DNA from: Paramacrobiotus metropolitanus
Taxonomy: Eukaryota > Tardigrada > Eutardigrada > Parachela > Macrobiotidae
Direction of reading: 5' to 3'
Length of the DNA stretch: 45,470 nt
Assembly: GCF_019649055.1 (NCBI RefSeq)
Contig: NW_026570555.1
Location: forward strand, 1 to 45,470
This document shows, piece by piece, positions 9,326-39,036 of this stretch (the stretch's first letter is position 1; each line of letters begins with the position of its first letter). The position numbers and the translations under genes are program-made. The notes below the pieces were generated by a model. It was given only the letters and a program-made list of their open reading frames with translations. It ran no database searches and was not told where the DNA came from.

Positions 9326-9326
9326 C

Positions 9327-16040: not shown

Positions 16041-16140
16041 CTGACTTTTCAAGTGGAAGTGACTTTTCAAGCGGGCGAGCGAAGCGAGCCCGCGTTTCTA
16101 ATTCAAGACATGTTGAGGGTTCGATCCAACGGAAGTGACA

Positions 16141-16470: not shown

Positions 16471-16620
16471 TGGGTAGTGACGACGGCGGGCAGTTTTAAT
16501 TGTGTTTCCAGTTTCCCAAAATACCTGTTACGTTATGCACTTCGAAATATTTCAAAATCCCTACGTGTGAATACCAACCGTAAGCCCCGATCCAGGTCCA
16601 AATGCAAAAATATGTTTTGA

Positions 16621-16870: not shown

Positions 16871-16963
16871 AACAGCTCCAGATATTTTTTTTTGAGTTAA
16901 CTGTTAGAAATTCAATTAACTGGATATTCCGCATTAAGATTTCAGTACCGGAATCTTACGTAG

Positions 16964-17687: not shown

Positions 17688-17859
17688 ATTCCTGGTGAGC
17701 AGGTTAGTGAAAAGATCAATAAAATTGAGAACATCATTTCGAGATTAGAAAAGTAAACTCAAAGTCTTTGGCTTTGGTCCGGGTGCTCATTCCGACTAGA
17801 GCTGATCCGCTCACGGGGGCTCCCAGTCCACAGGATATCCGGCCATCTAGGTCCGAGGC

Positions 17860-17960
17860 ATCGGTTCTCGGATACCAAGTGGTACCGGTTCGCTTCACCG
17901 AGGGTCGGGGGTTCGACCCTCGAGGGTCAAAGGTTCGACCCTATCGACTTCGGGTAAGGG
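17860..17960 (+). other. tRNA-like B-box tandem, possible SINE remnant
   Basis: Two GGTTCGACCCT motifs lie about 27 bp apart (around 17909 and 17931) preceded by a weak A-box-like TACCAAGTGGTA. I could not fold a complete cloverleaf, so this is only a hint of a tRNA-derived sequence downstream of the LTR. Confidence 0.2.
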
Positions 17961-18151
17961 TATGAATCTCCATTGTCGGGTGTGAAACGGGCGTGAAACA
18001 CACCTTCCGCTGTTTATTGTTAAATCTAACCTTTTACAAAATTTTTATGCGTTTTATTACCGGTGTTATTCAATTGTTAACCTTTAAATTGTTTTTCGCT
18101 TCACGTTTTCGTGGTTTGAAGAATGATAACCCGAAAATAAATAAAGCGGAC

Positions 18152-18640
18152 TGTAACAGACTCTGGCGAGGAGATCACGAATGTGCTTTATTGACAAATA
18201 AAGTGGGAACAATGCTGCGTAATAGCAGAAGCAAGAACAAAGGCGCTGATGGCCAAAAGTAGCAAGTGGATGCTAAAGTGGTTCTTGAGCGTCTGATGGC
18301 GTCAAAGAAGTGCTGGCGGCAACCACGTGCGTGCTGCAGGCCAGTCGTATGAGCTGTGTGATGCGCAGACTGGAACGCTGGGTCATACTGCGAGAGAGGA
18401 ACGAGAGAGCAAGTACAGCTCAGTGTGTGCGCCGCGTTTATCCGCTTCAGCGGATAAGTGCAGTGCAGTAGCACACGTACGTACAGCGAGAGAGGCGATA
18501 ACGGCATGCAATGGGTGCAAGTACGTCCTGTGTGGACCGTACGCACCAGACGCTATCGTACAGTCGTACGCCTCTGACAGGATGGAGCTCATTTACGACT
18601 TTCGCTGATTTCGGGCTTGTTGTTTTCGTTGTAGACTTTT
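18152..18640 (+). mobile_element. Second, related LTR-like sequence
   Basis: It starts TGTAACAGACTCTGGCGA...TCACGA and has a hairpin CTTTATT-GAC-AAATAAAG (18186-18203), the same arrangement as the LTR at 16964 (TGTGACAGCTGGCGA...TCACGA, then CTTTATTG hairpin). Later sequence shares only short blocks (ACAAAGG, GATG, AGTAG). The right end is not defined. I read it as a diverged LTR of the same family. Confidence 0.4.
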
Positions 18641-19340
18641 AAAATTGTTTACTACTTACGTTCTGGTTTTGCCAATACCACGGAGTTTTAGATTTTTCAG
18701 AACCCTTATGCAGTTGGACGTCGCCTTCGGCTCACAGAAATTAAAGGACTATAATTAATTAACAAAGTTTTGCGAGTGTTTGTAACCGCTAATGAAAAGC
18801 AAATGCAATTAACTGGTTTTGAATAGAACTGTAATAAACAATATGAGAGCGTTTACAATAAATAACAGAACCGCGCAGAACACAGTGCACAATTCACACA
18901 TATGTAGAACAAAAAAGGCTTTGATCTGCGAAATAGTGTGGCAGTATACGATTACAGTAAGATTATTGACTGCATGTACAGTCCACACTACACTTTGTAG
19001 TGTATGACCTGCCATGACAGTAAGTACTGGGCCAGCCCATAAACAGGTTGTTACGTTCACATTGAGCATACAGCTTCGGTAGCCAACTACGTAACAACCA
19101 ACTGGTTGTGAAAATTAGTGATTTCTCTTTTCTCTGATTGGTTGCTGCAGTGTTCCGTAGACTTTGCATAGTAAGGTTTCCAAATTTTCTTTGAAAACTT
19201 ATTTGTTTTTCCAAATTAAATGTGTATTCTACTCATCTACCAAATAAAGGCTATTAAATGATATGTCGATAGTAAGGATTGGCCCAGTGCATCATTCGTA
19301 GTAGGCGCGCACACTCACTGGCCACACCCCCCTTAATCTT
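18641..19340. other. Gene-poor interval
   Basis: AT-rich, with short frames on both strands and no recognisable domain, RNA gene or repeat. Confidence 0.4.
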
Positions 19341-19349
19341 TTATTATTA

Positions 19350-19440
19350 AGGATTTGAAAATATGGCAGTACTTCAAAAGTAAAGCAATACTTTAAAAGT
19401 GCTGTAATACTTTTAAAGTACTAGTTTACCAAAGTCACCT
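19350..19440 (+). repeat. Isolated copy of the 137-bp repeat core
   Basis: The string GGCAGTACTTCAAAAGTAAA...AGTGCTGTAATACTTTTAAAGTACTAGTTTACC matches the core of the tandem units at 20413-20825. It is a single separated copy about 1 kb upstream. Confidence 0.75.
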
Positions 19441-20412
19441 GACGTGTACTGGCGTCCCTTAGTACACATCGGTACTACTTTACTACTTCTACCCCTACTA
19501 CTAAGGCTTAGGCTTTACTACAATTTCTACGCGAGTCCTGACCCCAAGTCTCTACTTCGACTTCTCAGAAATCCCCAGCAGAGAACTTTGACCGCGACTT
19601 GCCATTTCGACGTGACCGCGCTTCGATGACGTAGCTTAACCTATTGTTCTAGTGTATTAGTTGACCTCTTGTTCTCATTAGTCCACGTGTAGTGATGCAG
19701 CGGTGTGATTAGTCCACGTGTCCTTAGATGTCTCTTAATGGCTAGAGTTTATATCCCTATTGTTCTCAAATCCGTACCTGCGCGTACGAAGAGCCAGCAC
19801 TTGCGGTGCCCAGGGCTATATAAGGCGCTCGTCGCCCACACAAATGTCAAGAGTTGTAATCCCAACAAAAGTAGAGTCTTGTTACTCGATCTGATTAACT
19901 TCAGGCTTTTGCTCTGGTCTTCTCTTTCCAAGTGAGGCTGTTCAAACTGACCTCTGGGTGACCTTTCACCTATTGTCAGGGGTCATTCCTCTATCTCGTT
20001 GACGTGCATTATCATCTTCGGATAATCTCGTGACGTAACAGGTTACCCACTTGATCCCACTTGATTTGCCTTGACCTTTCGGTCCCTTCGATCTTCATGC
20101 CCTGTAGCGCCAGGTTGATGGATCTCTCATACGCTTCAGCTACCATCTAGCGTCGGACAGGTAACGTATAACTTCACGCATCTCCCTTGTGTTTTCCTTT
20201 CGTGTCTTCTCTTTCAGCAGGGTTCCGGGTTCCTGACTTCTTCTTCATCCTCGCATATCATCTCAAACTTGTACATCAACATCCTTAACCTTTCGCTCCA
20301 TGAAATACATAAGAAGTTGAGATTAAGAGTCGCTCTATTCCTCCGACTGGTCGTGGTCTGGGAAGTGGTATAAACAACATACAACGCTTTTCGTTTATAT
20401 TGCACGACACAC
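19441..20412. other. Gene-poor interval
   Basis: Contains C/T-rich stretches and repeated short phrases such as GTCCACGTGT and TTGACCT. No supported gene. Confidence 0.4.
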
Positions 20413-20825
20413 CTTCCCGAACATCGCCGCACTGACCGATACTGACGATTATGAGCTGGGGCATCTGAAAGTATGACAGTACTACGAAAGTAAAGCAATA
20501 CTTTGAAAGTGCAGTAACGCTTTCAAAGTACTAGTGTACCAAAATGACCTTCCCGAACATCCCAGAACATGCCAAAACTGACGATTAAGGGCTGGGGCGT
20601 TTGAAATTAATGGCAGTACTTCGAAAGTAAAGCAATAATTTGAAAGTGCTGTAATACTTTCAAAATACTAGTTTACCAAGGTGAGTTTCCCGAACATCCC
20701 CGAACAGGCCGAAACTGACGACTAAGAGCTGGGGCATTTGGAAAGTATTGCTGTATTTTTAAAGTAAAGCAATATTTTCAAAGAACTGTGTCACTGTCAA
20801 AGTGCCTTTCAAATTGCTAGTGTGC
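20413..20825 (+). repeat. 137-bp tandem repeat, three copies
   Basis: Units begin TTCCCGAACATC at about 20414, 20550 and 20687 (period 136-137). Each has CTGACGA...GAGCTGGGGC(A/G)T and then an imperfect palindromic core around AGTACTTCGAAAGTAAAGC ... CTTTCAAAGTACTAG. The third copy is more diverged. Confidence 0.85.
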
Positions 20826-20881
20826 CAATATGCTAGTATTAAAAAACGGTGCTCATCATGGGTGTGGTGCCCCGACGCACT

Positions 20882-21021
20882 GGTCACCGCGTTGTCAAAC
20901 ACCAGAAACAGCATCCCCAGATAGAACCAGTTGAAGCGCAGGATTTTCTGGCAGAATTCCGGCGCGTGACCTTTTGGTTTATTCTCGTCCACCGTCTCTA
21001 GGCGCCAGTTGCCGGTCACCT
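20882..21021 (-). CDS. Possible isolated exon, membrane-helix-containing fragment
   Basis: On the minus strand the codons from about 21021 to 20882 read TGNWRLETVDENKPKG, then EFCQKILRFNWFY, then the hydrophobic LGMLFLVFDNAV, which could be one transmembrane segment. GC content and codon choice stand out from the AT-rich surroundings. A GTGCGT donor follows at 20881 and an AG acceptor precedes at 21021. A shortened relative (GACGAGGACAAATCC...GCTTCAACTGG on the minus strand) occurs near 21666-21695 with an internal deletion. I cannot name the family and found no companion exons; it may be a gene relic. Confidence 0.3.
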
Positions 21022-21154
21022 CTTCAGTAACGATAACAGTTACACATTTCTACATTTTCGCATTCCCACATTTTTGAATTTTCGCATGTTCGCTGATTTG
21101 CATTTTCGCATTTTGAAATTTTGACATTAATACAGAATCGTTTTTCCATGGTGC

Positions 21155-21595
21155 TTTATAGTGCGACGACGACGACGACGACACAAAATATGGTTAATGT
21201 GAATCGCAAATCTCTACTACACCGTGCTAGCACGTTTGCGTCATGGTAAAGCAATGTGCAGTATGATGCACAGTACTGTATAGCACTAGAGACTAGTACA
21301 AGACTGTAGCATGTGTCAATCAAAATGTAGTTTGAAGTGTGGTGCAAAAAATTATTAACTGCATATGCTTGGCATTTAGGTAACAAGTCTACACAGTACT
21401 GGTGCTGGAAAGGTGATACATTAAACAAAAGTTTTAACGACCGTTTTCACCGTGGTGCATTACAGGGCAACGACGACGACAAGTCGACAACTCAAAATAT
21501 AGATATGAACCGCAGATCGACGGTGTACCAAGAAGGTGCACGGCTGCATTATGGTGCATTACCATGCATTATGATGCACAACCAACGATAAGTTG
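21155..21595 (+). repeat. Diverged tandem duplication with a GAC microsatellite
   Basis: Two related blocks start with GACGACGACGAC (21161-21182 and about 21471-21484) followed by CAAAATAT...ATGTGAATCGCA / ATATGAACCGCAGATC and a stretch rich in GCATTATGATGCAC-type words. The period is about 305 bp. Confidence 0.5.
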
Positions 21596-21599
21596 TAGC

Positions 21600-22514
21600 T
21601 AGTTTGCATCGTGATGCTAATCTGCTTTGCATTTTGATACTATGCTTACAGTTCTGGCAGTCCTAGCCAGTTGAAGCAACGGATTTGTCCTCGTCAATAT
21701 TATTATTGTCATCTGCACTGTACTGGTACGGTTCTTTACCTTTACCGTTTTTTTATGGGGTTGCGATTTATTGCAGAGGCATGGCTATATAGAATACAAA
21801 AAGTTATTTTTTTATCTACGGGTTGATACTGACAATTACGGCTGAGGAGTCAGAAATGGGTCCGGATTCACCATACGCCATAGCCATGGACACCGGTCAG
21901 ATTTTACTGACCCTTATGTAGAAAAGACGAAGTCAAACATTCTGCAGTTAAACAAAAGGTAATTAGCTAAATAAAGGAGTTCTTCGTAAAATATTTTGAA
22001 TTTCTGAAACTGCGTGAGTTCCAAAAAGACTGTACTAGATTGATTAAGCGAATTAAACGGAGCGCTGCATCGATCAATAGCTAGTTATGTAGCGCCGATT
22101 GTGTAAAGGGCTCGTTGCTGACGGCATGCTACAACAGAGTTCCTTTTGGATTTCGCACAAACTTATTTATGCATCACGTACTGTTTATACCGATGGAGAA
22201 CATTTCCATAGGATTCTACAGTACACTGAACGCAACAGTTTTTCGTCAGCTTGCTTGCATTATTACATTACTACTTCGATTTCTTCTCTGTATTCATAAA
22301 ACCGAAGGCATCACTGCACTTAACTATACACTTTGGGAAGGACCGCGATAATTTGTGCAAAGTGAGAAGAATGCAGCTGCACAGCAATGATCGAAGAAAA
22401 GCTTATACTTGTTTTCAAGACTAACAAAACTGATAAAGGTTATTTCTGAAGTAGTGTTATTCAGAATGCAAGAGAAGTTATCGATGAAGAATTAGGTTTG
22501 TTACGGATGCAGAT
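21600..22514. other. Interval downstream of the KDZ gene, no gene recognised
   Basis: Two overlapping plus-strand frames at 22099-22351 look weakly protein-like but lack a domain. I could not identify a terminal repeat of a mobile element here by eye. Confidence 0.35.
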
Positions 22515-22522
22515 TTATTTTT
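22510..22522 (-). promoter_or_regulatory. Polyadenylation signal overlapping the KDZ stop codon
   Basis: On the minus strand the end of the frame reads GAA AAA TAA ATC, so AATAAA overlaps the stop codon. If used, the 3' untranslated region would be only some 15-30 nt, which fits a compact gene. Confidence 0.4.
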
Positions 22523-25500
22523 CTTTGAATGAACGCACGCTTCCTCCGATAGGTTGTTGATTGCTGGCCACACAACGCGACAGATACTGGTTTCTCCGTA
22601 CTATCAGTCGATGTATGAAGAAGATCTGTCTCGCCTTGTTCATCGCATTTAGTTGTTTCTTGTACCGAGCAAACCAAGAAAACGTTTGTTCTGCCGCCAT
22701 TGTATTTCGCTGTGTCGCTTCCGGGTGGCTTGTATTGTAGTTCTTCGGATGATACAATTCTTCGCACCTGGGATCCTTATGATTCTGTATGTGCAGTCCA
22801 TCTACTATCTTTGAAACACTCATCCACATGCTGTCAAACGGCGCGGGGAGGGGAAGCGGTGAATTTGCTGCTTTCAGCCGATTAAGCTGACAGATGTTGT
22901 CATAGCAAACAAAGGTTTCCTTCCAGGCCACGTGCGGAATCTTTTGCAGGATCTGATACAATGCGCATATGATGAAAAGGAAGACTTGACCCAAGCTTTC
23001 GGCTCTGCGAAATAATTGTATTGAGTTAATCAAGCTTTGCTTGGTATCCTGCGAAATAGTTAAGCGAACACGATAAAACGATTTTTAGAGATGCCGGTAC
23101 AACTCTCTTCAAACCGGAATGCTGTTTCCGGTGAGAAATACAAAGTAAAAATAAAGGCTAATAGCTATATTATTTTCCAGAATACCTGTAAATAGGAGAG
23201 AATGCAAAAATATGTCCAGTTGGTCCAACAAGGAATAAGTAACCACGGCTATACAAAAACCCACGGTCATTCTGCCCTTTATTTTTCACGCACAAATTCG
23301 GGTCAAACTTCCGACATTCAAACTCTTCAGAGTTCAAGTTAGTTTCTCCGCTGAGTATGGAATTAATGTCTGTCAGCGCTCTAGATCTGAGCGCTCTGGA
23401 AACACCTGTTCTTAACAGAAATCTTAAGAAAACATTCGGTGTCCTTTTCTAACTCGACCTAGCGTACCAGTCATATGAACAGTGGTGGCTGCTGTACCAG
23501 CTCCAGTGGGGACTTCCAGATGACGATGTTTTGCGCAGTAAGCAGAATTGCCAGATGGTGCACTGATGCACACCCGCGGGAAATTGATGAGATGAATGCC
23601 TTCCACGACATTCTGCAAAGCGAGCAAATACTGTATGGCTACATCAGAATCACATCATATTTGTCATATTACAATCAAAAACGTACATCTACTTCTGCAG
23701 CGCAGTGCCTAAAAGCAATCTTCCACAGGCCGTCCATAATGAATAGTTTTCCACACTGCCGAGCTCTACTTTCGTCAGAGCAATCATGCTCGTACGTAGT
23801 CGAAAAAATTTCTCCCATTCGCTGCTCTATGTACTGAAGGACACTCCGATCTTCTTTAAATTTGTATGGATGCAGATGCTGCTCTCGAATGTCGCACTCT
23901 ATTTCATGATGGAAAAAGATAGAGGCAACGGTTTTCCTTGAGAACACTAGAAAACATTGTTATAGAACTGAAATTCTTTAGCATTGAAATCTGTGTAAGG
24001 CTCTCTATCACATTCAGGCTTCCGCTGTGTGATGCAATTTTAGTCAAAGGTCTTACAGGAATTCCAGTTGTATGTCTCTTTCATGGTGGCTGCGATTCCG
24101 TCATAATTTGCACTGTTGAAAACTCTAAAAACGAACAATCAGTTTGCATTCGCATCTTTGAATTATGAATTTCTCAAGGATGATCGTACATCTGATTCAC
24201 AATTTCCAAGGCAAACTTTCGGCACACATAGATATCTTGCGAGATATCAAGATAGGGTTGCTGGTTTTCGTAAAATGAGTAGCAACCAGTTCGCCGATTT
24301 ATCCATGTGGCATAACTGTACCGCGACTCGCAGCCTCTGCACCGAAGCTTTACAGCCAATCCGCGTTTCACAACGCCCGCCCCGCAAAAAATTGACACCT
24401 GTAACGTCAATAGGTTAAACATGGCCGCTATAATTTTCAGCAATATTTTGCTGCCCTAGTCAACTTGAGCAGCTAGTTAACTACAGGATCGGAAACTATG
24501 AAACTGTTTACTGAGCGGCGACAGTGAATCGCATTAGCCGTGGGCACACTGCTTTATACGAGTACATTCTCCCGGTTATTATTTTGGTTGTTGGAGTAGC
24601 TTTCACATAGTAGTAGCAGCCGCAGTCTAGATGGCACACCGACAGTTTGCTGACCTTTATTTTGCTGATCGAAAATTTGCGAACCACTGACCATTTAGAC
24701 AAAATGTGTACTCTAAAATGTTTTATGCAACGACAAGTTAAGGATCAGCACATTGCCGAACGGCTGTTTGCCGAACCCACAACTTTGCTGCCCCCGATCT
24801 ACTGAGTAGAAGAAAGAATAATGAGGACCGTGAGAAAACATAAGAAATCACAACACAACAGCTACATTGAGGATCGCGCGCGAATAAAAGGAAACATATG
24901 AAGTCACAGCAAGAAAAAAACAAACGCAGACATTAGCCCGATTAGCGACAGCAAGACAATTTCTGCGAAACGCCCATTAGCAAACTGACTGTCAGCAACT
25001 ACCTAAATAAGTTATTTGTTGGTCAGCAAATTGTCGGCAAGCAAAACGGAAGTCACTTAATCGACATGCAGCCGACAAAGACATGACAGGGATATTGCGG
25101 CGATTAAACAAAAAAGATATGCATACAGGCAATCGTGCTTTGGTTTAAAAAGTGGTTAAAATTAAAAGATTTACCATCAAGATCGGGGTAAAATTCGGGT
25201 TCGAGCTAATCAGTGCTTGTAATAGGCTACTTATCCCAATCAGTTCGCAACTGCCAGTTTTTTTTCGACTAGCAAAGTCTAAAAGGTTTTGCAAACCAGT
25301 TTCATATAGATGGAATTAAGAAGTCCTAATAGCACAAGCGCGGTTGATTATTGTGCACGGCGTAGTAAAAATTTCTCCCAGGAAAACGTTTTAGAAACAT
25401 CTAATGACCGCGCTTTTAACCCGTCGATAATAACTAATGTTCTCGAATGCACATTTACTGCGGTCAGTTTACGGTACTCACTGGTGTTGGATCTCGGTGC

Positions 25501-26254
25501 CAGGACAACACGCGTAACATGCCTTTTCGTTTTCCAATCTTCCAACGGCAACCATTCTCGCAGTAGATTACTGGAGGAGCTAAGACAACTGAGGGTGCGG
25601 AATAGGGTTCGTTTAAAATGAAAGCAGGAGCATATTTTTTGACGTCCTCAGCAAATCCAGCCGTAACTGAGACCGGCAGTCTCATCATTTCCGCAATAAG
25701 CTGCAACATCTGCACAGTTATTTGTACGGAGACACAATCAAGACCTAACCAGACACACAGATGAAAGACTTACATCCAGTCTGTTTTTGCTTGGTAAGGT
25801 TTGTGGTATTACGGCACAACACGCTTTGAACCGTTCTAGGTTTTGCAGGCCATATTTTGTTGCTAGATACCCATACGCTTCTCGCGAATTGGCGGTGTAG
25901 TTCATTTCCGGCACAGTATCCACTGCGTTGGCCATTCCGGTTATTTCAACGCACAACTCTAACACATCTGCTTTTAACAGCCTAAAAACTGAATTGTAAA
26001 GGTGTTTCTTTCGGTCAATCAACAAAGGTAGACAACCTTCGAACGCCGACTCTTCTAAGACGGCACTGTTGTCAAAGACATGAGCTTGCAAGTTCTATAA
26101 TCGGAAACCATTTTTGGGCTGCGTGCTTTAACGCAGTCATGCTTTTCTCACAGTACGGTGAGTCAGAGTGCTGCCAGTTCACCATCTTCACCAGCAAAGA
26201 CTGAAAACTGTTAAGGATATCTTGTAAGCTGTGAACAGCGGTATGAGTCATCAC
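22515..26254 (-). CDS. KDZ-type (Zisupton-like, HMGXB3-related) transposase protein, 9 exons
   Basis: Minus-strand exons: 26254-26152, 26084-25774, 25700-25482, 24398-24190, 24124-24057, 23946-23687, 23612-23468, 23405-23186, 23004-22515. All eight introns (62-1083 nt) are GT-AG and phases match at every join, giving 674 residues with no stop. Exons 3-4 hold a cysteine cluster (CENGC, CRGCESRY) and exon 7 another (VCISAPSGNSAYCAKH), as in CxC modules of KDZ transposases and vertebrate HMGXB3. The RNase H-like core shows the acidic triad: Asp375 (FIMDGLWK), Asp547 (CYDNIC) and Glu617 (MAAEQTF), with a DGLHIQNHKDPRC motif between the last two. KDZ proteins are nuclear cut-and-paste-type transposases; catalysis here is inferred. 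The start could be the second Met. Head to head with the P-loop/PHD gene. Exon 1 is the least certain. Confidence 0.82.
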
Positions 26255-26588
26255 AAATCAAGCGTGGTGAGCTGCTGTCTAGCACCGATGCGGCGGGCCT
26301 GTGAGGTTCTTCGACATTGCATCCAGATGCGTGGACAGCAGTTTGCATTACGACTATGCTGGGTCTTCGTACTTTTAACAAGCTGGGCTCGTCCCATTTT
26401 TTGCTGATTGAAAGCGTTCATCGCTGTCACAGTTTCAGTGCTGTAGGCTAATTTTACATGTAACTTTCTTCGTTTCCAAAGTCAGCGCAGACCGTGCGGG
26501 TTGGTTTAACTAATTCCGATATAAGCGCTGACTGTAGCCTAAACTTGGAAGTTTTCAGTATTGACACTGTCGTTATTCGACTTTAACC
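26255..26588. promoter_or_regulatory. Divergent promoter between transposase and P-loop/PHD genes
   Basis: A 334-bp spacer separates the two start codons. It contains a TATA-like GATATAAGC at 26518-26526, about 65 bp before the plus-strand ATG, and an inverted repeat GTCAGCGC (26481-26488) / GCGCTGAC (26525-26532), extended outward by TTCCAA / TTGGAA. The geometry implies shared or coordinated transcription; the inverted repeat is a candidate protein-binding site. Confidence 0.5.
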
Positions 26589-29500
26589 ATGTCAGACCTC
26601 TCGGTAAGGCGTTTGTTGCACTTTATAATCATAATCATCGTCCCTTCCTGCGGTTCGCAATTTGGAATCTTCTGTTTTGCGCGTTTTGTGAAATGAACTA
26701 GATAAAAAGCCTATTTTAGCGGTGCATAAACCAAAATCGCGAAAACGGAAATGGGCTAAAATGCGATCTATTATAACATCGGTTTTGTAGATATCAAGCA
26801 GTTTTTCGTTTGATGCTGACGATGGAAAAACTTATAAGGTCCTGGTTCAGAAAGAAGCACAAGACGATAAAAGAAAGGTCCTGAGCTGCTCGCTCACCAT
26901 TCAGGCTATTGTGCGCGGAGATGACGATGAGACCGAAGGGGGGTGTGTGGTTGCTGTGGATTGTGGAGTACTTGGAAAATAGTAAGTACTGACGTAAGTT
27001 AAACTGCAGGCTTTAGATTCGTAAATGCGAACGATACTTTAGTTTAGCGGTGCAGGGAAACCGAAAACTTCGAAAACGGTTACGAGCGGTTAACAGAGGC
27101 TTAGTACACCATTTGATTAAGTGCCAAATTCCATATCTAAGAGACCCAGAATAAAGAAAACTGCTTCCGTGTGGCAAGCAAATGCCGATGTCCGAATGTA
27201 AATAATTTTGGTATTGCTGAAGTGGTCAACCTTTCGCACTACGTCACGTAGAAGGAACGACCAGTAAGAACGAAGTACTGATAAAAGGAATAAGTAAGAT
27301 GCACAATGAGGTTTCGCAACTGCACAATATTATCTTTTATGTTATTTACCGAACGAAGGCGTCAAGGAAGGTTTTTGCAGTATCTGCTCGACATAGGCAA
27401 CAGCTTCATGATATCAGCCCTGGTGTCGTTTCAAGTTATAGCGGATTACGCTGTTTAGCGACGGTGGAAATCTGTTATCATTAACTTACGTTTCTGTTCG
27501 AAAAACAAAATTTTTCAGCTCTGGTTTCCTTGTCAATACCGCATGGAAATCGCCGGATAACTTTAGCACTTGTTTGAAAAAGGCCTGCAAAGGCCTTCCA
27601 CCAATCTTCTGTAAGCTCAGCCACAGTGACCTGCAGGATTATGGGGACTCACTTATTGAAGCGTACATTCGGTTAGCAAACTGGTTTTCTTGTAGGTTGC
27701 CGTAATTAGCATTCCTGACCGTTTTTTTGTTTAGGGAATCAGAAAACAATGGGCGCCCAGTATTACAGAAGCGCGTTGTGCGGCATGGAAGGCAGTCGGA
27801 TAGGACTGTGATTGTGTTTGGTCCCGACGCTGCGTTTCGCGTAAACAGCGACGGCGAAGTGGATCGCGTTGATTTATCAACGACCGGTTACATCTGGGTC
27901 GAGAACACGTTAGCTGAACTGTCCATTCCGGAAACAGTGCCACCTGACTACGATGCTTTGTCTTTTCTCTGTTCCCTGCTGCCACCTAAAGCGCAACTCG
28001 CATTTGCACTTACGCTGGGTAAGCTGGAGTTGAGGCATTGTAAACAGTTGTTAAGGAATTTGTGTTACTCTTACAAAGCACACTGCATTTTGCTACAACT
28101 GCCTTAAACCCGACTAGATAATCTGACATCTTTTTTCTTACGTTGTTTCCGATTTGGCAAGTGTGAACTTACAAACTCGGGCAAAAGCATCGAGCCACGA
28201 GACACCTTCTTAAGTTAAAAACCGATTGCGGCTCCAATTCCTACGGTCGCACGTCGAACTTTATTATTTCCGAACTTTCCGAATATTGCACACGTGCCTA
28301 TCAAAGGTTTTGCTATCGCTAGGGCCTTAAACTTTAACACCTGTTTACGGACAAGCGGAGACATTCCTTGTAATGTTTACAAATCATTTTCAAGGTTGCC
28401 CGGCCTTTAGCTGGGTTACGACTGTTGTTTTAAATTCAGTTAATTTTTGCACATTTTTACACATGAAAAAATAACAAAACAGAAATTCCGCAACAGCCAT
28501 TTTATCTTGGTCAGGTAGCGTTCTGTTTACGCACGTGGCATTCCCTGGTTGAATCTTTACGGATGGCCACTACGCTGACGACTACTACGCGACAAGTCGT
28601 CGCAGGACATTGGGTTTTAGGGACACTTCGTCTAAGGACAAACTCGTTTTTATGGCAAATAGTCATATGCCTCTTTGTTGCCATAAACCAGTCGATTATT
28701 TTCCACTCCCCTAAAGTCGCTCTATCAAATGTTACTCAACAAAACTGCTGCAAAACGAGTTGTCCCAAAACAGATTAGCGGCTGCGACGAAAAACGTGTG
28801 GCGAAATGTCTCACGACGAAATGTCCCGCGACTACTTGGGCTGTCACGTTCGAACATCATAAAACGTCCAGTTTTAAATTTAAGGCAAAAAAACGGCAGG
28901 ATTTGCCTAAAGGGGTAACGAGCAACCAAATTATATTGCAGTTTTCTTACTGTGACTGACTGCGCGTTTCTAAAATCTTTATCGCATATTAAGGTTGTAA
29001 TTTGCTCCGTTTTTTTCAGGCGCCACTTACGGTGGATTTCACTATGATACTATGATTGGGGCGTTTAGGCGGATGCCAGCCTTCTTTCTGCACGGAGAGA
29101 CGAACTGCGGTAAATCGTGCATTGCGAGCATGGCAATGGAATGCTTTGCAGTTGGCGCTTCACAGTTGCTGGATTTGAAAACTGTAACGCCGGCAGCGCT
29201 GCGGGAGCTGATAGTTTCTCAGAATTTCCCTGTTGTCATTCATGATCCCGAGAGCCCAGAGATTGTGAAAACCGCAGTGGACGATACATATGAAAAGAAA
29301 ACTTTGGCAACGGCAAAAGAAAGAAGAGTTCCACAAACGTCAACAATTATCACACTTAACGAGGATGCCTTTGCAGAATTTCGTTCACATGATCAGTAAG
29401 TATTTATACGGTACCGCAATTGTGCTATGAGAAAGTTTATACAGTATATCATGGCTTTGTTGGGTGAATCAAACTGAAATTGCTGAGGAAAAAATGAGTA

Positions 29501-32500
29501 ATTAGGGATTAGGAATCACCGAGCATTTTTGGGGGGAGCAACCACTTATACAGTTCACTCTTGTACTGGTCGCTAAGATTCTTAGCGGGCGACTTTACCG
29601 TCGTCTCTTATCTGACTAGCGCGACGAGGCGAGCCTGACGAGCCTTAACTGATTATAGTTGAAAGTGTAGAAAGCATACTTACATAACTGCCGGAAAAGA
29701 GCAGCAATCATGATCTAAGAAACACTGTCTAATGCATATTAATTGACCGCTTACATGTGGGCGTACCACCTGATCTGCCAGCTTGCCAAAGTTAAGATCC
29801 ATCCGTCAAGTTTTCGGTTGACCATTGCTCACATCGGTTTCAAAGCGGTTGTTTAAAACACTGTTTCGGAACCCGATTCAAGCATTAGGTCATGCATTTA
29901 AAGTTAGTTTAAATCATGCAGTATCTATCGAAAGTGGAGCATATGAAAATAGTTCCTGGATTTGGTTTAACGCTAATCTGTATTTCAGCTTACGAGGACT
30001 TTCCCGTCTTGTCGCTTGTAAACTGGACGAACAAATGCCTGAACGCGATGCGCTATTGTGCATCACGGACAAGGAAAAGTTTCGATACGTGTGTCAGCAT
30101 GCGAAGAGGCTGTTATCCTGCAGCAAGAGTGACGTAACTGCGGTCGCACAACTGCATAAGCTCATTTTTCCGGAAGTTCTTGAGCAATTACGGAAGTACG
30201 ACGTCGTGTACTCCTTAGAGCGTATTGCATTCAACATTTCCCTTGTGTATGCTTTTGCAAGAAAGGTTGGTTGATTTATATATTGAAACGGACATTTGTT
30301 CTCACAGTATTAATCCAGCAGACTAGCGGCAGGATTCGCCTATGCAAATAGTGTAACTCGAAGTGGAGAGAAACAGCGATACATTTTTGCACGGTATCTT
30401 TTTAATTTACCAACCATGCAGCATTTAAAGTTCATGCAGCAGTAATCATGCAGCAGTAATCAGGCAGCAGCAGTAATCTGTTCTGCTGCATTTTTGGTCT
30501 TCAAACTATTACTGAAATCAAAATTCGAGCACATTTTCTTTATCCTGCGCATTTGCCTAGTAAATAAAAGCTAACAAAATGGTTTGGCTAGGCCTAGTAA
30601 TACGGAAAATATTCACAACTCAAACTACATGGTTAAAATTTAAGGTTCTTTGAGGTTTTATGAAAACTAGTCGCTTGTATTCTACAGTTAAAAAAATTCG
30701 TCAGTAGAACTGATTGCCAAAGCAGCAGTATTGGAAATCCGATTGCATTCGGTTGAGCAGCTCCGTGGTAAAGAGAGATAGAGAACAGAGAGAATACCGG
30801 TGACTCGATTACTTCTCACTTAGCTTGTTGTATTTAAGAAGAAAAGTTGGCTGTACTTAAATGCGCGTCACCCTAGATCTTATAATAACTGAAAAAAGTG
30901 ATCAACAATTGCTGAGAAATATTAGGATTTCGTTGAAGCACTCTTTGCAGGTATTAGAAATGATTGACGTGAAGAAATGCATTAACCTGGAGGAACTTCG
31001 TGAATTCGTTCTGAAGTACCTTTGCAAGAACGCAGCGACGTGGCAAAAGAAGCCACCGACTACCAAGGCCAAGCACACCTTACCTCCCACGCCACTATCG
31101 CCTGATACGAAATCGGCAAAAACCTCGGCTGCACCCGGTCAAGTTAGCGCAATGATAGAAGCGGCATGCAAGAAGCTCGATCCGAGTGCTGTACGTGCAA
31201 AGAACGTGACTAAAATGCAATCAACTTGATTACGTGTCAGAGCTTTAGCAGTAAACTGTTGACACCTCCGCGATGAGAGCCTTTCGTTTGAACGTCTGCA
31301 GTTGCGCATGTATTAGACGAGCATGAGTTTGTATTGAAGGCCTTCTTTCCTACTCTAGATATTGCAAAATTTAATTTTATTACCTCGAGCACAGTATCTT
31401 AGCACTTGTAACCTAAGCAAGATCAGCGTGCTTAAACTTGAAGCGCTAAGATCGCTACGTTTAAAATTTTGTGTACTTAAAACAAATTTCGTATGTATGC
31501 TTCAAAGGTCAAAGACTTCGCAAGACCTTTCACGGGGAAGAATAACAGAACGGGAGAATCTTGCTCGTATCTTGCATTTCGACAAGATGGAATTGAAGCG
31601 GAACTCAAGAACAGCGGTGTCGATGTATCGTTTTTGAAGCCATACGGAGCAGCGGTTCGCCTGATTCCTGACGCAGAAGTGTCACGCGATGTCCGTTTTG
31701 GCAGCCGCACACTGAAATCTTCTGTCATACCGGTTGCCAACGTTTCCAAACAGCTGATGAATCTCTTTGCTAAAGATGGTATGTCTGCCAGCCGTAAAAA
31801 AAATTTAAGGATTTATTAAAGCTCCAGCCGTAAATTAATATACTAAGTAAAGATTGTCTGCAGATTCGCAATCCATCCAAGGAGCCACAGCAGAGAAGGC
31901 CAAGGAAGAAATTCTGCCGCCACCTGCAGTTCAGTCTGGGGAGCTGGACAATGCTCAAAGCACGGAACCGATCACTGATCTGCCGGAGTCAAAAGGTGAC
32001 GCAGCTTACTCTGCAAACTTGAGTAATATACGCAGTTAATTGCGTATCTACAGAGAAAATCGTTATTAGTTTGAAGGTATCTGCAGGGTTTAGTGCTGGA
32101 TCTTTACTTTCCACGTAAACCAATTATTTTAACATCCTTTAATGCACATCCATGCTATTTTTCATTTGTTTCCATAAAATGCAAACTTTCATTTGTTTTC
32201 ATAAAATTGAATTCTGACTTGAACTTTTCCCATATCTTGGTCAGCTTACCTTTAGAACTTCTTATTTTGCTTACCAGGTATTAAATTTTCCTGGGAAACA
32301 AGGGCTGTCAGCAATGAGTAGTTTTTCTTGTTAAAGTTTTTCTCGTGAACTGCAGGGCATTAACAAAAATCAGAGTCTGCATGAAACAGAACAAAGAGCA
32401 GGAAACGGATCGCAGTTATCATCACTGCAACGTATAAACCGTGATGCCACCGCCGCTAGCCACGCTTAGAAAATTCTAAATTTTCACAATCTGGGTTTTT

Positions 32501-34461
32501 ATTGGTTTCTGTGGTTTTTGTTGGTCGCAGTGGAAGACAAGTGAAAAAACACTTCGAGCGGTCAGCAGGCAAAATCATGTTGCATGCCATATGGCTAGCG
32601 GCGCCAGTAACTGGTGGATAAAATATGAAGCCGCATACCTAAAGTGACCAAAATACAAGGAAGAATTGAGGTTAGAGCCCTGCACGAGCAGAGCAGCTCG
32701 GCTCGGCTCACGACCGCTAGTGCTCGCTATTGCTTCGAGCGAGCAGGCACCGTTTGCGTTTTTGCGAACGAGCTAAGCATCAGCAAAAAATTAGCGACCG
32801 AGCCGAGCGAGCAGGATGGTCGGATGCGAGCTATCTCGAGCTGACACGCCTCATATTGTGCGATCTGAAGAATTTACTGCGAGAAATTTAGCTGAGCCCC
32901 AAAGGCCTTAATACACCGTCAGCTTCGCGCTTCGCGCGACAAATTCTTCGTATTGATTTTTGTTATCACGATGCCAGTGACAGGCTGGCAGCTACCATTC
33001 TTAGGCAACCATAAGGTTCTTTCTATGGCATCGTGTGATTCTTCCTAAACCAGGGCTAGAGATGCTGAGTTTTTCGACTTTTAAGCGTGTTAAATACAAT
33101 TTGATTTCGAATCCAGAAACTTTTGTTAGCAAAAAACGAAATCAGCATCAAAACAAAGGAGTGGGGCGTGGAGGTTAAGCAGAAAAATCATAGACCAGCC
33201 GCCGAAGTGATCTTAGCGGAAAAGCAAATTTCGATAAAAGCTATCTGTAGTCGCGCATAAAACAGTTTAAATTTTGCTGTACCATATGTGAATTTTTTTG
33301 TCAATCTTACGAGCGAGCCGATCTTAGACCATAACAATACGAGCGAGTTGAGTGAGCTGGAGCAAAAAAAATCGGAAAAGGAGGGAGTTAGTGAGCAGAG
33401 GTTTCAGCGCGAGCGAGCTAAGCGACCAGAAAATTCTGAAAAGCTCAAATGAGCGAGTTGAGCACCACTTTTGCTGCTCATGCGTGCTCTCATTGAGGTA
33501 CTTGTACCCGTTCTTTCAAAAATTTTGGGCAGCACATAGAGACCCCTCGAAATAAACGTAAATCATTCGCTATTTTTACCCTGGCCGACGTTCCCTGCCT
33601 TCCACTTACAACTGTCCGGTTTTGCAGGTCTTGAAAGCACGGCAGACCGTGGTCTCAAAGATTCGGTCGCAAGCACCTCGGACATGAAAGCTGGTCAAAC
33701 TAATGCATGGTCTGATGTCGGTAACAGATTGCCATCGCCGGTGTCGGATACTGAAGGTGAAAGCATTAGTTTCGCTCAATACTCAACGAAGAAAAAGTAG
33801 AATTATTGTATACGTATTGCATATGCGAGCATATCTGCTAAATGGGGAAAGTTTAGGTGCCTAATGATTACGTACTTCAAGGTCGGATTATTATACAGGC
33901 AGCCGTCCCCTGGTGGCTGGCCGTGTTGCACAGGCACAGTTACCGGCTCTATTGCCCCTTGCTCGGGTGCTCGGGCTCATTTATTCCCTTCTCGCACTTT
34001 AACAAAATGTTTTACATAAATCATTTTTTTAAATTAAGGCAAGGAAAAAGGAAGCCCAAGCGCCAAACGAGATGTTGCTGGAGCTGAATTAGGAAATGAT
34101 CGTAAGCGCGTCGTTTTGCTCTTGGCTACTGAGCTACTCAGAAATAAATTTCGTACTCTAATTCGGATTTGGCTTAGTAGAAAGAAGAACGCGGAGCAAA
34201 AAGCTGAAAGTGAGTGTTATCAGCGATGGAAGCACTATTGCGGTAAGCCTTAGTTGATGGTTTGCTAATTTCAGAAGTTAAGAATCCAGTTTTCATTTGC
34301 AGTGTGTTGATTGCAAGAAAGAAGTCACGCCGGATGAACCTGGAATTGGTTGCAAAGCTTGCAAGAAGTGGTATCACAAAACATGTCAGAAGGTTCCTAA
34401 GAATATTAACAGTGCCAAGGCGAAGAAATTCAAATGCACATCCTGTGCACCCAGTGACTAA
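26589..34461 (+). CDS. P-loop ATPase/helicase-like (DUF927/SF3-like) protein with C-terminal PHD finger, 13 exons
   Basis: Plus-strand exons: 26589-26603, 26791-26981, 27519-27671, 27735-28018, 29020-29395, 29989-30265, 30951-31190, 31508-31778, 31864-31995, 33628-33756, 34039-34101, 34178-34209, 34303-34461. Phases match at all twelve GT-AG joins, giving 773 residues. Exon 5 has Walker A GETNCGKS (240-247), Walker B PVVIHDPE (Asp290) and a sensor-1-like TIITLNE (Asn328), the order of SF3/AAA+ ATPases; preceding GGFHYDTM...FFLHG resembles DUF927 proteins. The middle is acidic and disordered; exon 12 is a basic RRTRSKKLK patch. The last exon is a C4HC3 PHD finger: Cys722, 725, 738, 741, His746, Cys749, 766, 769. 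PHD fingers read histone H3 tails, so a chromatin-directed ATPase is inferred. The five-codon first exon (MSDLS) and the exon 3 donor (GTTAGC) are the weakest calls. Confidence 0.8.
28580..28850. repeat. MITE-like inverted repeat inside an intron of the P-loop/PHD gene
   Basis: The left side reads AAGTCGTCGCAGGACATT ... GGACAAACTCGTTTT; the right side in reverse complement reads AAGTAGTCGCGGGACATT ... GGACAACTCGTTTT. The block lies in the 1,001-nt intron after exon 4. Similar GGACATTTCGCCG-type words recur at 35.97-36.13 kb. Confidence 0.6.
32660..33480. repeat. Two GAGCGAG-rich blocks in a long intron
   Basis: Blocks at about 32680-32845 and 33300-33475 are rich in GAGCGAGC/GAGCCGAGC words and share GCGA(A/G)CGAGCTAAGC followed by A-rich sequence. 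They sit in the 1,632-nt intron before the exon at 33628 and are probably copies of one simple-sequence-like repeat. Confidence 0.45.
33757..33800 (+). other. Read-through alternative 3' end of the P-loop gene
   Basis: If the GTGAAA donor at 33757 is skipped, the frame continues for 14 codons (GESISFAQYSTKKK) to a TAG at 33798-33800. This would give a protein lacking the PHD finger. Unspliced or short-isoform use is possible but unproven. Confidence 0.3.
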
Positions 34462-34652
34462 AAACTGGGAAGAATATTTTCTGTGCAACAGATATCAACC
34501 GCGTCAGCAGATTCTCTTATTCTGCGTATTTGTCTGATGAGAATGCCTTACGTTAATTTTGCTACTGGATCCAGAACCTTGCTATTCTTGCAAAGTTCCA
34601 CTACCATCGAAATGTTTAATGCTTCTGTTGATACAACCTTAATGTTTTGTGA

Positions 34653-34658
34653 CAAATA
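34653..34658 (+). promoter_or_regulatory. Candidate polyadenylation signal of the P-loop/PHD gene
   Basis: First AATAAA (in ACAAATAAATGC) found downstream of the stop codon, about 190 nt after it. Confidence 0.4.
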
Positions 34659-34661
34659 AAT

Positions 34662-35960
34662 GCTGGGAATAGTTATGCATGCTTGACATTAAAAGGTTAT
34701 ATCAGTACTTTCTCAGAAACTCGTTTAACGACATAAGACTAACGACAACTGGTCACCATACTCTTCTTGTTCAGTTTTCTCAGTTTTTTACTTGTATCTG
34801 CATGAGGAGTGATTTAAATGCATCCCAGTTTTAGGCGCCTTCAATCAGATTCGGCTTTTTTTATCTCCGGTTCGGGCTTGTTACGACAAGTAAAGACAAT
34901 AATCCATAACTTTGCGGGCCAAGCTCTTTTTAAACTGAAACAGCAATCGAAGCACCTACCGCTTGAATGCCTCCGTGCTTTGACACTGATTAAGGCATTG
35001 GGCATGCAAGCCACAAAAACAACAACATTAATGGGTCGGCAAAACAAGCAAGAAGCCAAAGCTTGAAGTGAAAACTGATGTACACTTGTTGATATCTAGC
35101 TAGACACCGGACACATACTAAGCCGCATGGATTCGAACTATTTCTTTTTTCTAACTGCGACTCCACAAGCTGACTCGCTTGTACATACATATGCTGCACT
35201 CCCAAGATTTAATGCAAATTGCACATATATTCAAGCCTTAAGCTGGAAAATGACCAGGTAGAATAATTTTTCATCAAATGAAATGGTGCTTACACGGTAC
35301 GCAACTACGCAACCGTAAGTAGTAAATTTAATCGTGTTAAATCACTGCCATAATTATTATTGATTAACGGTAAGTTTCTCCCACCACTCCCAGGAACATA
35401 AAAGAAAGTATAGTAGATCTCTAAAAAATTCGACATTAGAATCGCATTGGGAAACCGGGCAAAAATTTGGGAGGGAGACCTTTAATTGAATTTTACGGCA
35501 CGTCACTCGTGCTTCTCTCTTCCAGGTTGGTAGGGTGTACGGATCATAACGGATGTACCTAGCGGCCCCACAAAATGGCGGTATACGTGCGTGGTTTGTC
35601 TCTCGTGCACAACTTGCCATACTGTAGACTACAGATACTCAGACTAGACTCATTCAATATAGAATTTTTAATCTTACCAACCAACAAACCGTTTTTTTTT
35701 AAAAGTTGACACATCACGGCGAGAAATACAGTAGTGCCAACTGAAATCGTACCAAAATTTGCACGCTTTGGCCGTGCTCACAAATTGCCGAATCACGTGG
35801 CAATCCTTTCCATTGCAAACCAAATGCGATTTTACAACTGGCTTATGTGGAGAAGGACTTCTATTTCCATTACAAAAAAAAACATTTTTGCCGTGGTGAA
35901 TGCGCTGGAGGCGATGCGCAGTCAGCCCACCTCGTGTCCGATCACATCGGCCGCATGCGA
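34662..35960. other. Gene-poor interval
   Basis: Frames here (for example 34818-35066 plus, 35357-35620 minus) lack recognisable motifs or coherent splice partners. Nothing else is supported. Confidence 0.4.
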
Positions 35961-35964
35961 TCAC

Positions 35965-36140
35965 TGGTACCGCGACATTTCGCCGGGGCCATTTCGCCGT
36001 GGGACAATTCGCCGTGGACATTTGGTTCCACGGACAACTAGACTTGAAACAATACGTCTTGGGACTTTTATTTTAACGGACAATACGTTTATGGAAAATC
36101 CGTTTCGTGACAACTAGCCGCGGTGCATTTCGTCGCAGTT
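35965..36140 (+). repeat. Degenerate GGACATTTCGCCG repeat cluster
   Basis: A run of diverged words (GACATTTCGCCG, GGCCATTTCGCCG, GGGACAATTCGCCG, GGACATTTGG, GGACAACTAG, GGACAATACG) spaced 15-20 bp apart. It is related in sequence to the inverted repeat at 28.58-28.85 kb and is likely another piece of the same element family. Confidence 0.55.
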
Positions 36141-38050
36141 TATGCAAGAAATACGTAAATCAAAATAAGTTCGCGTTCTACTAGTACGTAAAAGCTGATT
36201 ACTAGAAAAATGCACGTGGGCGTGCCTTAGCAGACCGGAGCGAAGCGGTTTCACAGCTTGGTCAAAAAGCTTTATTTGCATGGCCCGCCGACAAAAATTC
36301 ATTGACATTTTTTGTAAATCAGACAACATGTGGGAAAAACTGAACACCAGACAAAAGTGTTTTGCGACTGTTCTTCTTTTATTCTTTGAATTTGATTTTT
36401 TTCACTATATATTTATGCCATTTTAGGGCAGTTGTTCCCAGAGTTTGTCACAGATCACCCGTCAACAAATACAAATTGATCTGTTTTAAGTTATCACCGG
36501 ATACCGTACATCTAGCATCTTTTGCGAGTAGTTTCTAGCTATTTCTGACACCGCTAAACCGTGATTTTAGTAAAATAAAACTACGACAAATCGCCTTAAG
36601 CAGTTCAACCTGGTGTCCCTAAAGCACCTCCTCCCATTAAAAATTCGTTTTTAGTTGATGCCTGAGTTGAAGTTCAGAAACCGTTTCGTTATCACAAGCC
36701 CGCTTCACAAAATAAATTTTGTAATAAACAATGGAATTTTACGCAGACAATGGAGTGTCTATTTGCCAATTGATCTTAACCGACCACTGCGTGACCTTTT
36801 TAGATTGTTGCAGGCACTATTAAAGTGGGGGATCATCCGAATTACGTCCTACAACTGCCCAACCAGGGTTGGCATGGCTCTTCATTATTTATGCCAGGGT
36901 GCCCTTCCTTACTGGCCGATCTTCTTTTAAAAGTTGGGCACGTATTATTCGAATGCGACGATGGCAAAGGTTGCTATTCAAAGTGCCCCATGTTTTTCAT
37001 TAGCGTTTTAAGCATACAGGAAACACCACGTTACCATCAACGGTGCTTTCGTAGCAGACACAAAATGAGCAGTGCGAAACTGTTCTACAGTACAGTCTCA
37101 TGGCATTATCCGGCTAGCATAGTTTTTTGGGCTTCGTACGGGCCTTTAGCCTATCGAATCGTCTTTAAAGTCCTTTGCACGCATAAAAATGCGGGATTCG
37201 GCTTAACATCACGGCATTTCTAACTCGTGTCCAATTTCCACAGAAATTCAGAACTAAAATACAAGTTAACTGGATCTTCACCTCTTGTAGACAAATCGGA
37301 GCACTAAAACTGTAGTTGACCTTGGAAATAACATAAGGTCTCTGCCCGATGATGGTTCCAGCATGTTTTTTAAAGAGCGTTACGAAACTTACTGGTTTGT
37401 ATTATGTGGGGCTTCAGATTCGATAATTACGGTATTAAACCCGTAACAGGTTATAAAGAGTAATACCGCAAAACCTGATTGCAAACTACACCTTCGGAAG
37501 AAGCAAAGCCGATTGTCTGTGCTTAAGAAAAAGACTCGTACTCTCGGTCAGTTATCCAACAAACTTGATCGTCGCTCACGCTATTAATACTGTTTAAGTA
37601 ATCACTTAATAATAAAATCGAGTATTTATTAAGTAGCACTTGTCACTGTGCTGACCGCAGTTGTTATATTGCAAAATGTTGTTAATTGCAACTGGAAAGT
37701 AACACCTTCGCTTTTGACCTGCATATAGCTACAACACGATAGCGTTTTCCCAGGCAAAAACAATTGAAGGATCTTTAGTGAAACAGCCTCAAAGCGTCCT
37801 GTTATGGCAACAACAGCCAGAAAAGGCTTCAGGTATATGTACAAAAATTACGTCGAACTGCGAAGTTCGCAATAACTCCCAGTTATCATTTCACGTTAAC
37901 ACTGCAAAATCAATTCGCTCCAACTGTATTGCCAGTTTCCCGAAGAAAATTAAGCCATAGTGTCGCAACAGCTGCGGTAACCTGCCGCTATTATTGCAGC
38001 TGGACTGATGGCTCTACTCAAGGCCAGGATGGTAAGCAGATACAGCGCTA
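36141..38050. other. No recognised gene; weakly protein-like frames at 36655-37223
   Basis: Two overlapping plus-strand frames (36655-36930 and 36825-37223) look mildly coding (for example PSLLADLLLKVGHVLFECDDG) and could be one frameshifted relic, but I recognise no family. From 37960 the DNA begins to resemble the adjoining minisatellite (GTCGCAACAGCTGCGGTAA). Confidence 0.3.
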
Positions 38051-38760
38051 CGGCTGTTTCGGACATTGCGGTATCATACCGCTGTTGCTGTGGTTGCGGC
38101 AGTTTTCTGAGCACGGCCAATGGCCAGACACGGCGTTGCGGCTGTTGCGGTATTATACCGCTGTTGCTGTTGTTGCGGCTGTTTTCTGAGCACGGCCAAT
38201 GGCCAGACACGGCGTTGCGGCAGTTGCGGTATTATACCGCTGTTGCTGTTGTTGCGGCTGTTTTCTGAGCACGGCCAATGGCCAGACACGGCGTTGCGGC
38301 TGTTGCGGTAGTAAACCGCTGTTGCTGTTGTTGCGGCTGTTTTCTGAGCACGGCCAATGGCCAGACACGGCGTTGCGGCTGTTGCGGTATTATACCGCTG
38401 TTGCTGTTGTTGCGGCAGTTTTCTGAGCACGGCCAATGGCCAGACACGGCGTTGCGGCTGTTGCGGTATACCGCTGTTGCTGCTGCGGCTGTTTTCTGAG
38501 CTCAGCCAACGTCCGACACGGCGTTGCGGCTGGTGGCGGTATTATACCGCTGTTGCTGTTGTTGCGGCAGTTTTTCTGAGCACGGCCAACGGCCAGACAC
38601 GGCGTTGCGGCTGTTGCGGTATTATACCGCTGTTGCTGTTGTTGCGGCAGTTTTCTGAGCACGGCCAATGGCCAGACACGGCGTTGCGGTATTATACCGC
38701 TGTTGCTGTTGTTGCGGCTGTTTTCTGAGCACGGCCAATGGCCAGACACGGCGTTGCGGG
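38051..38760 (-). repeat. 79-bp minisatellite, array 2 (about 9 copies, inverted relative to array 1)
   Basis: Units carry the reverse complement of the array 1 unit: GGCCAATGGCC, GTTTTCTGAGC, TGTTGCTGTTGTTGCGGC and the palindrome CGGTATTATACCG. Period is 79 bp for the first copies, with truncated units from about 38465 onward. About 30-50 bp beyond its right edge, GCGCAACAAGTTTTGGTAC...GAGCC resembles the reverse complement of sequence outside the left edge of array 1 (near 6513-6542). Confidence 0.96.
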
Positions 38761-39036
38761 TTTTGCTTGGTCCGCAACAAGGCACTGACAGGCGCAACAA
38801 GTTTTGGTACGTATTGAGCCACTTCTGGACTTGCTATCTAAGCAGTAAGCTAAACTCTAGCGTAGATTTCATGCAACCGCCATTACTTGTACATGGAAGC
38901 CCAGGTTTGCTCGCATGGATCGCTTAACCTAGTGCAACTTGCAAGCTCGGTATACATCTCAAGTTGTCCATAATCAACAATGGCTAAGGTCTAATACCTA
39001 TTATGTAAGCCGCTGCAAATTAACCGTACACTCCGC

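Follow-up and report, generated by a model that had tools for sequence, protein, structure and literature searches.

The locus described here raises the question of whether two genes that stand head to head in the tardigrade Paramacrobiotus metropolitanus, one for a KDZ-type transposase and the other for a P-loop ATPase with a PHD finger, form one functional unit, which the initial annotation had suggested could be either a large autonomous transposon or a domesticated pair. The stretch of DNA analyzed, hereafter the window, is contig C335 (45,470 bp) in a genome of 169.8 Mb and 533 contigs. We consider it probable that the window holds a copy of a cut-and-paste lineage of the KDZ superfamily (Zisupton-like) that in its complete form carries two linked, outward-transcribed genes and that would need the ATPase for transposition. 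What the genome reveals, at the level of sequence, is a family of units bounded by terminal inverted repeats (TIRs), with target site duplications (TSDs), oriented arrays, divergent pairing of the two genes, and selection and gene trees that the genes share.

Both genes have multiple exons, and the reading frames of both are open through the joins, in agreement with the divergent arrangement first described. We count 337 bp between the start codons where 334 bp had been given, and our models yield 697 and about 810 residues in place of 674 and 773 codons, because the splice choices differ. The coordinates assigned initially (22515..34461) fit the gene pair and fall short of the full feature, which runs from 6505 to 38827. 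The gene models are as follows.

22515..26251, minus strand: KDZ transposase gene; nine exons, 697 amino acids; ATG at 26251, stop at 22515-22517
26251-26080, 25988-25774, 25709-25482, 24455-24190, 24124-24057, minus strand: exons K1-K5 of the KDZ gene
23946-23687, 23612-23468, 23405-23186, 23034-22515, minus strand: exons K6-K9 of the KDZ gene
26252..26588, no strand: interval of 337 bp between the start codons; a presumed shared promoter
26589..34461, plus strand: P-loop ATPase/PHD gene of 12 exons, from the ATG at 26589 to the stop at 34459-34461; product of 810 or 815 amino acids, depending on the last splice choice
26589-26603, 26791-26981, 27519-27671, 27735-28018, 29020-29395, 29989-30265, plus strand: exons P1-P6 of the P-loop gene
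30951-31205, 31508-31778, 31864-31995, 33628-33756, plus strand: exons P7-P10 of the P-loop gene
34039-34244 (or 34209), 34303-34461 (or from 34283), plus strand: exons P11-P12 of the P-loop gene

Exons K2-K9, P2-P8, and P12 are conserved and collinear in other copies in the genome, at ~35-79% amino-acid identity, in a comparison that drew on up to eleven other stretches (two of them, C9a and C9b, overlapping); K1, the 5' edge of K4, P1, and P9-P11 are placed by splice signals only.

When both genes were searched for within this genome, the P-loop exon gave 28 matches, and 53 KDZ places were kept from 65 + 61 match rows after second pieces of one locus had been removed by hand. Of the 28 P-loop matches, 22 have a KDZ place no more than 15 kb away, 19 of them in divergent orientation, relative to a chance expectation of 0.9%, or ~0.3 of 28 matches, and chance adjacency was rejected on these figures. 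Homologues of the two genes are thus adjacent elsewhere, and with 28 matches in a mobile context the P-loop gene is not a single-copy host gene, a possibility that had been raised at the outset. Three P-loop matches are in tandem with KDZ; each is an extra one past KDZ, in a locus where KDZ is already paired with a divergent match. Nine divergent pairs (on C53, C420, C50, C4, C74, C103, C58:868169, C138, and C130) share only 21-37% identity with the P-loop exon of the window and 37-54% with its KDZ exon, and as they retain the divergent arrangement at such low identity, the arrangement looks old. Further P-loop matches occur past the KDZ 3' end in the C7a/C56/C92 subfamily and perhaps represent a third gene.

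C7:2307667-2308008, KDZ strand: extra P-loop match beyond the KDZ 3' end
C92:18396-18557, KDZ strand: extra P-loop match beyond the KDZ 3' end
C56:367944-368078, KDZ strand: extra P-loop match beyond the KDZ 3' end

The idea that the element consists of the two genes alone was rejected, as its true ends lie beyond them. An inverted-repeat search restricted to 20500-36500 gave no convincing TIR, because the real ends are outside that range. The element and its parts are placed as follows.

6505..38827, no strand: entire transposon copy of 32.3 kb, with a terminal motif at each end and, inside each, the same 79-bp array, inverted
6505..6528, plus strand: L terminus, TAGGAC and an 18-bp core (TGGCTC..GTACCAA) with core letters identical to those of an end at C104:420698
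38804..38827, minus strand: R terminus, CAGAAG and the 18-bp core in minus-strand reading
6635..7965, plus strand: left subterminal array, with a 79-bp unit repeated 16.9 times and 32 GCCGCRAC octamers, each of them forward
38066..38766, minus strand: right subterminal array, 9.1 reversed copies of the 79-bp unit of the left array; 15 octamers, all reverse
7966..22514, no strand: region from the left array to the KDZ 3' end, which consists at least in part of nested repeats

The 18-bp terminal core, in which 14 letters are fixed, is matched 70 times in the genome, and its reversed pattern, used as a control, is matched nowhere. Pairing of ends by nearness and facing direction gave 19 pairs, or 20 with the window; the duplication test covered these 20 pairs, and of the other 30 ends most lack a facing partner. 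Seventeen of the 20 pairs combine an end of TAGRAC plus core (L) with an end of CAGAAG plus core (R). Twelve of the 20 are flanked by an exact 8-bp target duplication, compared with 1 of 380 swapped pairs; nine of these duplications are flush with the element, and in the other three 1, 3, or 5 additional bases stand at the R end. The eight pairs with no exact 8-bp duplication are those of the window, C171, C56, C52, C142, C1a, C134, and the palindromic C1c. We assigned the two ends of the window to each other, with no TSD to prove it, because of the array that they share and because of C104, which has an L end with the unusual core letters of the window and a KDZ exon that is the closest relative of the window's own.

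The content of the units varies. Among 19 end-to-end elements (C1c left out), six have KDZ, P-loop, and PHD sequences, four have KDZ with no P-loop match, and nine, down to 300 bp in length, have no KDZ match. The PHD finger is present in all six complete two-gene copies. Eleven of the 18 PHD-exon matches lie inside paired ends, and the other seven (C121, C150, C92, C27, C9, C171:9022, and C63) are on contigs that carry either an unpaired end or a P-loop match of the family. The first of the two alternatives considered initially, a large autonomous transposon, is therefore supported, because copies with the recurrent divergent pair sit between shared TIRs, many with TSDs.

Several copies have features of their own. 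A 0.3-kb miniature derivative with both ends present is located at C134:113463-113762. Two elements of 24.8 and 13.9 kb (C35:433665-458457 and 590328-604211) have perfect TSDs and a PHD exon, with no KDZ or P-loop match inside. The 11.3-kb unit at C1:2833017-2844359 has two L-type cores and identical inverted flanks and is either a large palindrome or an assembly artefact. At C9:862000-895999 there are two family elements whose P-loop genes converge, with inverted stretches of 1.8 kb (94%) and 2.7 kb (93%).

The subterminal arrays are a further character of the family. The two arrays of the window contain 47 GCCGCRAC octamers, relative to none in the 30.1-kb interior and two outside the element, and the strand polarity of the octamers was seen in 8 of 8 arrays checked (the two of the window and six of other copies). 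In those six the units are 82-94 bp long and diverged, to the point that the unit of the window aligns with that of C92 no better than with shuffled sequence. That the polarity persists while the array units have diverged suggests that the octamers are binding sites for a protein.

The orientation of the interior relative to the ends is not fixed. Among the KDZ-bearing complete elements compared (those on C1, C7, C38, C44, C56, C60, and C171 and that of the window), the KDZ 3' end points towards L in five of ten and towards R in the other five. It differs between close relatives, namely C56 and C7a, and C171 and C7b, and in the latter pair the switch falls between array and genes. Recombination between the inverted arrays would explain such flipped interiors. 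Inversions through recombination between copies are likewise described for Galileo of Drosophila, as far as the available account of this P-superfamily element goes. Galileo has repeat-rich ends and a transposase of a family other than KDZ.

Selection on the two genes was compared by the ratio of nonsynonymous to synonymous divergence (dN/dS; Nei-Gojobori on joined exons), for which five pairs of copies were usable. The values for KDZ and P-loop, respectively, are 0.12 and 0.11 for C56-C7a, 0.12 and 0.11 for C171-C7b, 0.19 and 0.14 for C92-C150, 0.18 and 0.22 for C38-C9b, and 0.08 and 0.09 for C56-C92; purifying selection on both genes is thus similar, with dN/dS of 0.08-0.22 in the five pairs. 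The corresponding dS values are 0.263 and 0.267, 0.262 and 0.222, 0.052 and 0.051, 0.111 and 0.072, and 0.84 and 0.72. The C171-C38 pair is near saturation (dN/dS of 0.04 for KDZ and 0.10 for P-loop), and comparisons with the window are saturated in dS, with dN of 0.28-0.29 for KDZ and 0.39-0.41 for P-loop. Trees of the two genes over nine copies have an identical unrooted topology. Based on the agreement in dS, dN/dS, and trees, we infer that the two genes have traveled as a pair, and the element appears to need both.

The minus-strand protein contains a CxC5 cysteine cluster (E = 9.1e-6; 26.3 bits against a curated Pfam cut-off of 26.9) and matches the KDZ domain PF18758 with E = 0.007 over the whole protein and E = 8.7e-4 for the last exon alone. 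With a threshold of E<=1, nine of 16 family members match this domain, the best of them at 6.2e-6, and together these profiles bear out the annotation of a KDZ-type transposase. Candidate DDE residues are the D of IMDG in exon 6 and, in exon 9, the D of YDN and the E of AEQ, which we take to be the catalytic triad of the family. The first D is kept in all ten rows aligned (C7b reads IMDE), and the second D and the E are kept in 16 of 16 rows, an alignment of 16 of 20 KDZ loci from which four with internal stops were left out. No KDZ relatives were found in viral contigs, in collections that are mainly prokaryotic and viral.

The exons for the ATPase core and the PHD finger of the partner protein are as follows.

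29020..29395, plus strand: ATPase core exon, with GETNCGKS as Walker A, VVIHDP as the Walker B-like motif, and an ITLN motif, aligned in 11 sequences
34303..34461, plus strand: PHD finger exon; PF00628, E = 3.5e-5

The signatures GxTxxGKS and PVxxHDP and an Asn are invariant in the 11 sequences, one of them at 37% identity (one stop-bearing copy, L007, was left out), and a conserved SR lies ~17 residues past the Asn motif. The members have weak Pfam matches to TniB, STAND, and AAA families, the best being nSTAND3 (E = 0.0048) and TniB (E = 0.014); TniB PF05621 is matched by 8 of 11 members at E<=10, and the window copy has E = 0.11, scoring 12.3 bits where the cut-off is 22.4. NCBIfam and PHROG scans gave no significant family for the ATPase, and PDB profile searches gave nothing convincing (an ABC transporter at E = 0.053 in one, nothing below E = 0.23 in the other). 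The PHD finger named at the outset was recovered with the C4HC3 profile PF00628, just above the cut-off in the window and more clearly in C7a (E = 2.1e-7) and C171 (E = 3.2e-7), and the top solved-structure match of its exon is an ALFIN-LIKE PHD finger (E = 0.0034). PHD fingers are the kind of domain that usually reads histones, and the co-encoded ATPase is probably chromatin-binding.

The rest of the window can be described briefly. Within the region from the left array to the KDZ 3' end, positions 14000-15600 include a 1.6-kb piece with copies at 91% and 77% on C141 and a dispersed repeat of ~290 bp (82-88%) with at least dozens of copies (40 of 249 candidates were scored); six open reading frames (ORFs) scanned in this region matched no Pfam family at E<=0.01. 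Outside the element, a reverse transcriptase ORF, presumably of non-LTR type, occupies 158-2587 on the minus strand (RVT_1, E = 8.4e-26), and upstream of that ORF is another long one, for which Pfam gave no match. A ZSWIM3_N ORF (E = 7.8e-12), which possibly belongs to another transposon, lies immediately beyond the R end, at 39040-39978 on the minus strand.

A number of observations weigh against the interpretation that the window holds one copy of a two-gene KDZ transposon lineage. No TSD can be recognised at the window copy (AGCATTTG/GACTTGCT), whose KDZ and CxC5 scores are both under the Pfam curated cut-offs. No KDZ place is near six of the 28 P-loop matches, and a divergent P-loop match within 15 kb is missing from 34 of the 53 KDZ places; these 34 may be partial copies, deletion derivatives, lineages that manage without the partner, or places where it is too diverged to find. 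Four of the nine distant P-loop matches are marginal (C103, C58, C138, and C130; E of 4e-4 to 5e-4). A search with the PHD query detected no PHD exon in the nine distant pairs, and hence the finger may be younger than the gene pair or too diverged to see. Stops occur in several copies, and in the C9a-C38 pair dN/dS is 1.67 for KDZ on a dS of 0.003 and 0.25 for P-loop, too few changes to read. AlphaFold models were too poor for fold comparison (predicted local distance difference test scores, or pLDDT, of 40 for the ATPase exon alone and 36 for two exons of the ATPase gene read through a short intron). Relatives of the P-loop protein outside this genome were not found in a protein database, viral contigs, or genome contigs that are mainly prokaryotic and viral.

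If the window does hold a transposon that needs both of its genes, then the transposase would recognise the element ends and the GCCGCRAC arrays, and the ATPase would assemble on the array-bound complex or on target DNA, where it would license or position strand transfer. The PHD finger would dock the ATPase on histone tails, and insertion, or escape from silencing, would thereby be chromatin-guided. We propose this ATP-dependent control of the target or of the complex tentatively and, within this interpretation, rate it somewhat short of an even chance. There is a bacterial precedent in Tn7/Tn5053 and Mu, in which a DDE transposase likewise has a co-encoded P-loop ATPase. In contrast to these systems, the ATPase described here has no significant TniB match, the element is eukaryotic, and a domain of histone-reader type replaces the bacterial target selector. 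By analogy, the family could be a eukaryotic counterpart of Tn7 or Mu, whose DDE transposase would have its target chosen by an array-loaded ATPase reading histone tails via the PHD finger, although we regard this full parallel as improbable.

The alternative that survives best is that the ATPase-PHD gene is an accessory for persistence, acting in anti-silencing, chromatin opening, or protection from host control, outside the transposition machinery. The available text on fungal KDZ elements with TET/JBP genes describes a second, chromatin-related gene there as well, which is a dioxygenase, unlike the ATPase-PHD gene, and for which a role against silencing was proposed (PMC12730594). A PHD finger is well suited to binding chromatin, and its lack of detection in the distant pairs is what might be expected of an add-on. 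Conversely, the ATPase core tracks KDZ, with an identical tree and similar dS, and is found again, in divergent orientation, in relatives that are much older. Linkage, however stable, is not enough to dismiss the accessory role, because several of the fungal TET/JBP types passed between transposon lineages but the one in Kyakuja and Zisupton did not, according to the same partial source (PMC12730594). On balance we think this role unlikely, if worth serious consideration.

A helicase that aids the copying or repair of the element, similar to SF3 or primase-helicase proteins, is to us a slightly weaker prospect. Its attraction is the order of motifs, Walker A, B-like, Asn motif, and then SR, which resembles that of SF3, together with a weak PHROG match (E = 0.048, 148 positions) to a family of phage primases. 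The initial annotation had similarly called the module SF3/DUF927-like; the P-loop motif itself is present and conserved, but no SF3, D5, or DUF927 Pfam family matches the gene product at E<=1, Pfam detects no primase or polymerase domain in it, and its Pfam matches, all weak, point instead to TniB, STAND, and AAA. Finally, chance neighbors or a domesticated host gene pair, the second alternative considered initially, are hardly credible even though both genes resemble ordinary multi-exon genes and the window copy lacks a TSD, because the divergent pairing recurs with TIRs and TSDs and there are many copies, decayed copies, and deletion derivatives.

Comparison of the two-gene transposon with published KDZ elements places it within a known superfamily. 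Zisupton/KDZ transposons of fish, fungi, algae, and Pristionchus likewise combine a KDZ transposase and cysteine cluster with multiple exons, TIRs, and an 8-bp TSD, the last being known for KDZ elements from the accessible parts of two reports (PMC12730594, PMC12810828); the elements described here differ from them in the divergent ATPase-PHD partner, the long inverted subterminal octamer arrays, and the two distinguishable ends. The multi-exon KDZ elements of P. pacificus have TIRs and transposase gene families of 1166 and 1367 amino acids, and the available portion of that account names no partner gene and reports no TSDs (PMC9297572). Giant KDZ elements of up to 30.3 kb in Ectocarpus and 31.7 kb in Chlamydomonas are likewise large, with nested insertions and non-autonomous derivatives, and many of these families carry additional transcribed genes, left unnamed in the text available, in which an ATPase or PHD protein is neither shown nor excluded (PMC12477816). 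The sections available of four further papers name no ATPase-PHD partner (PMC9587614, PMC12062965, PMC8226300, PMC5718144); one platyfish Zisupton isoform has an F-box (PMC12062965). Among the literature matches listed, a set that did not extend to the founding Zisupton (2012) and KDZ (2014) papers, there was no transposon, KDZ or other, with an ATPase, helicase, or PHD partner, which is not proof of absence. Thus 8-bp TSDs, giant size, and accessory chromatin genes were already known for KDZ elements, and the ATPase-PHD partner appears to be new as far as the literature surveyed goes.

Eukaryotic cut-and-paste transposons, to our knowledge, mostly work with a transposase alone. A long-lived KDZ lineage that keeps an ATPase-PHD protein as strictly as its transposase would allow tests, in a eukaryote, of transposition that is controlled by ATP and guided by chromatin. 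The oriented octamer arrays offer a ready DNA substrate for binding tests. If the interpretation is true, the two proteins would be a natural pair of enzymes for directing integration by histone marks.

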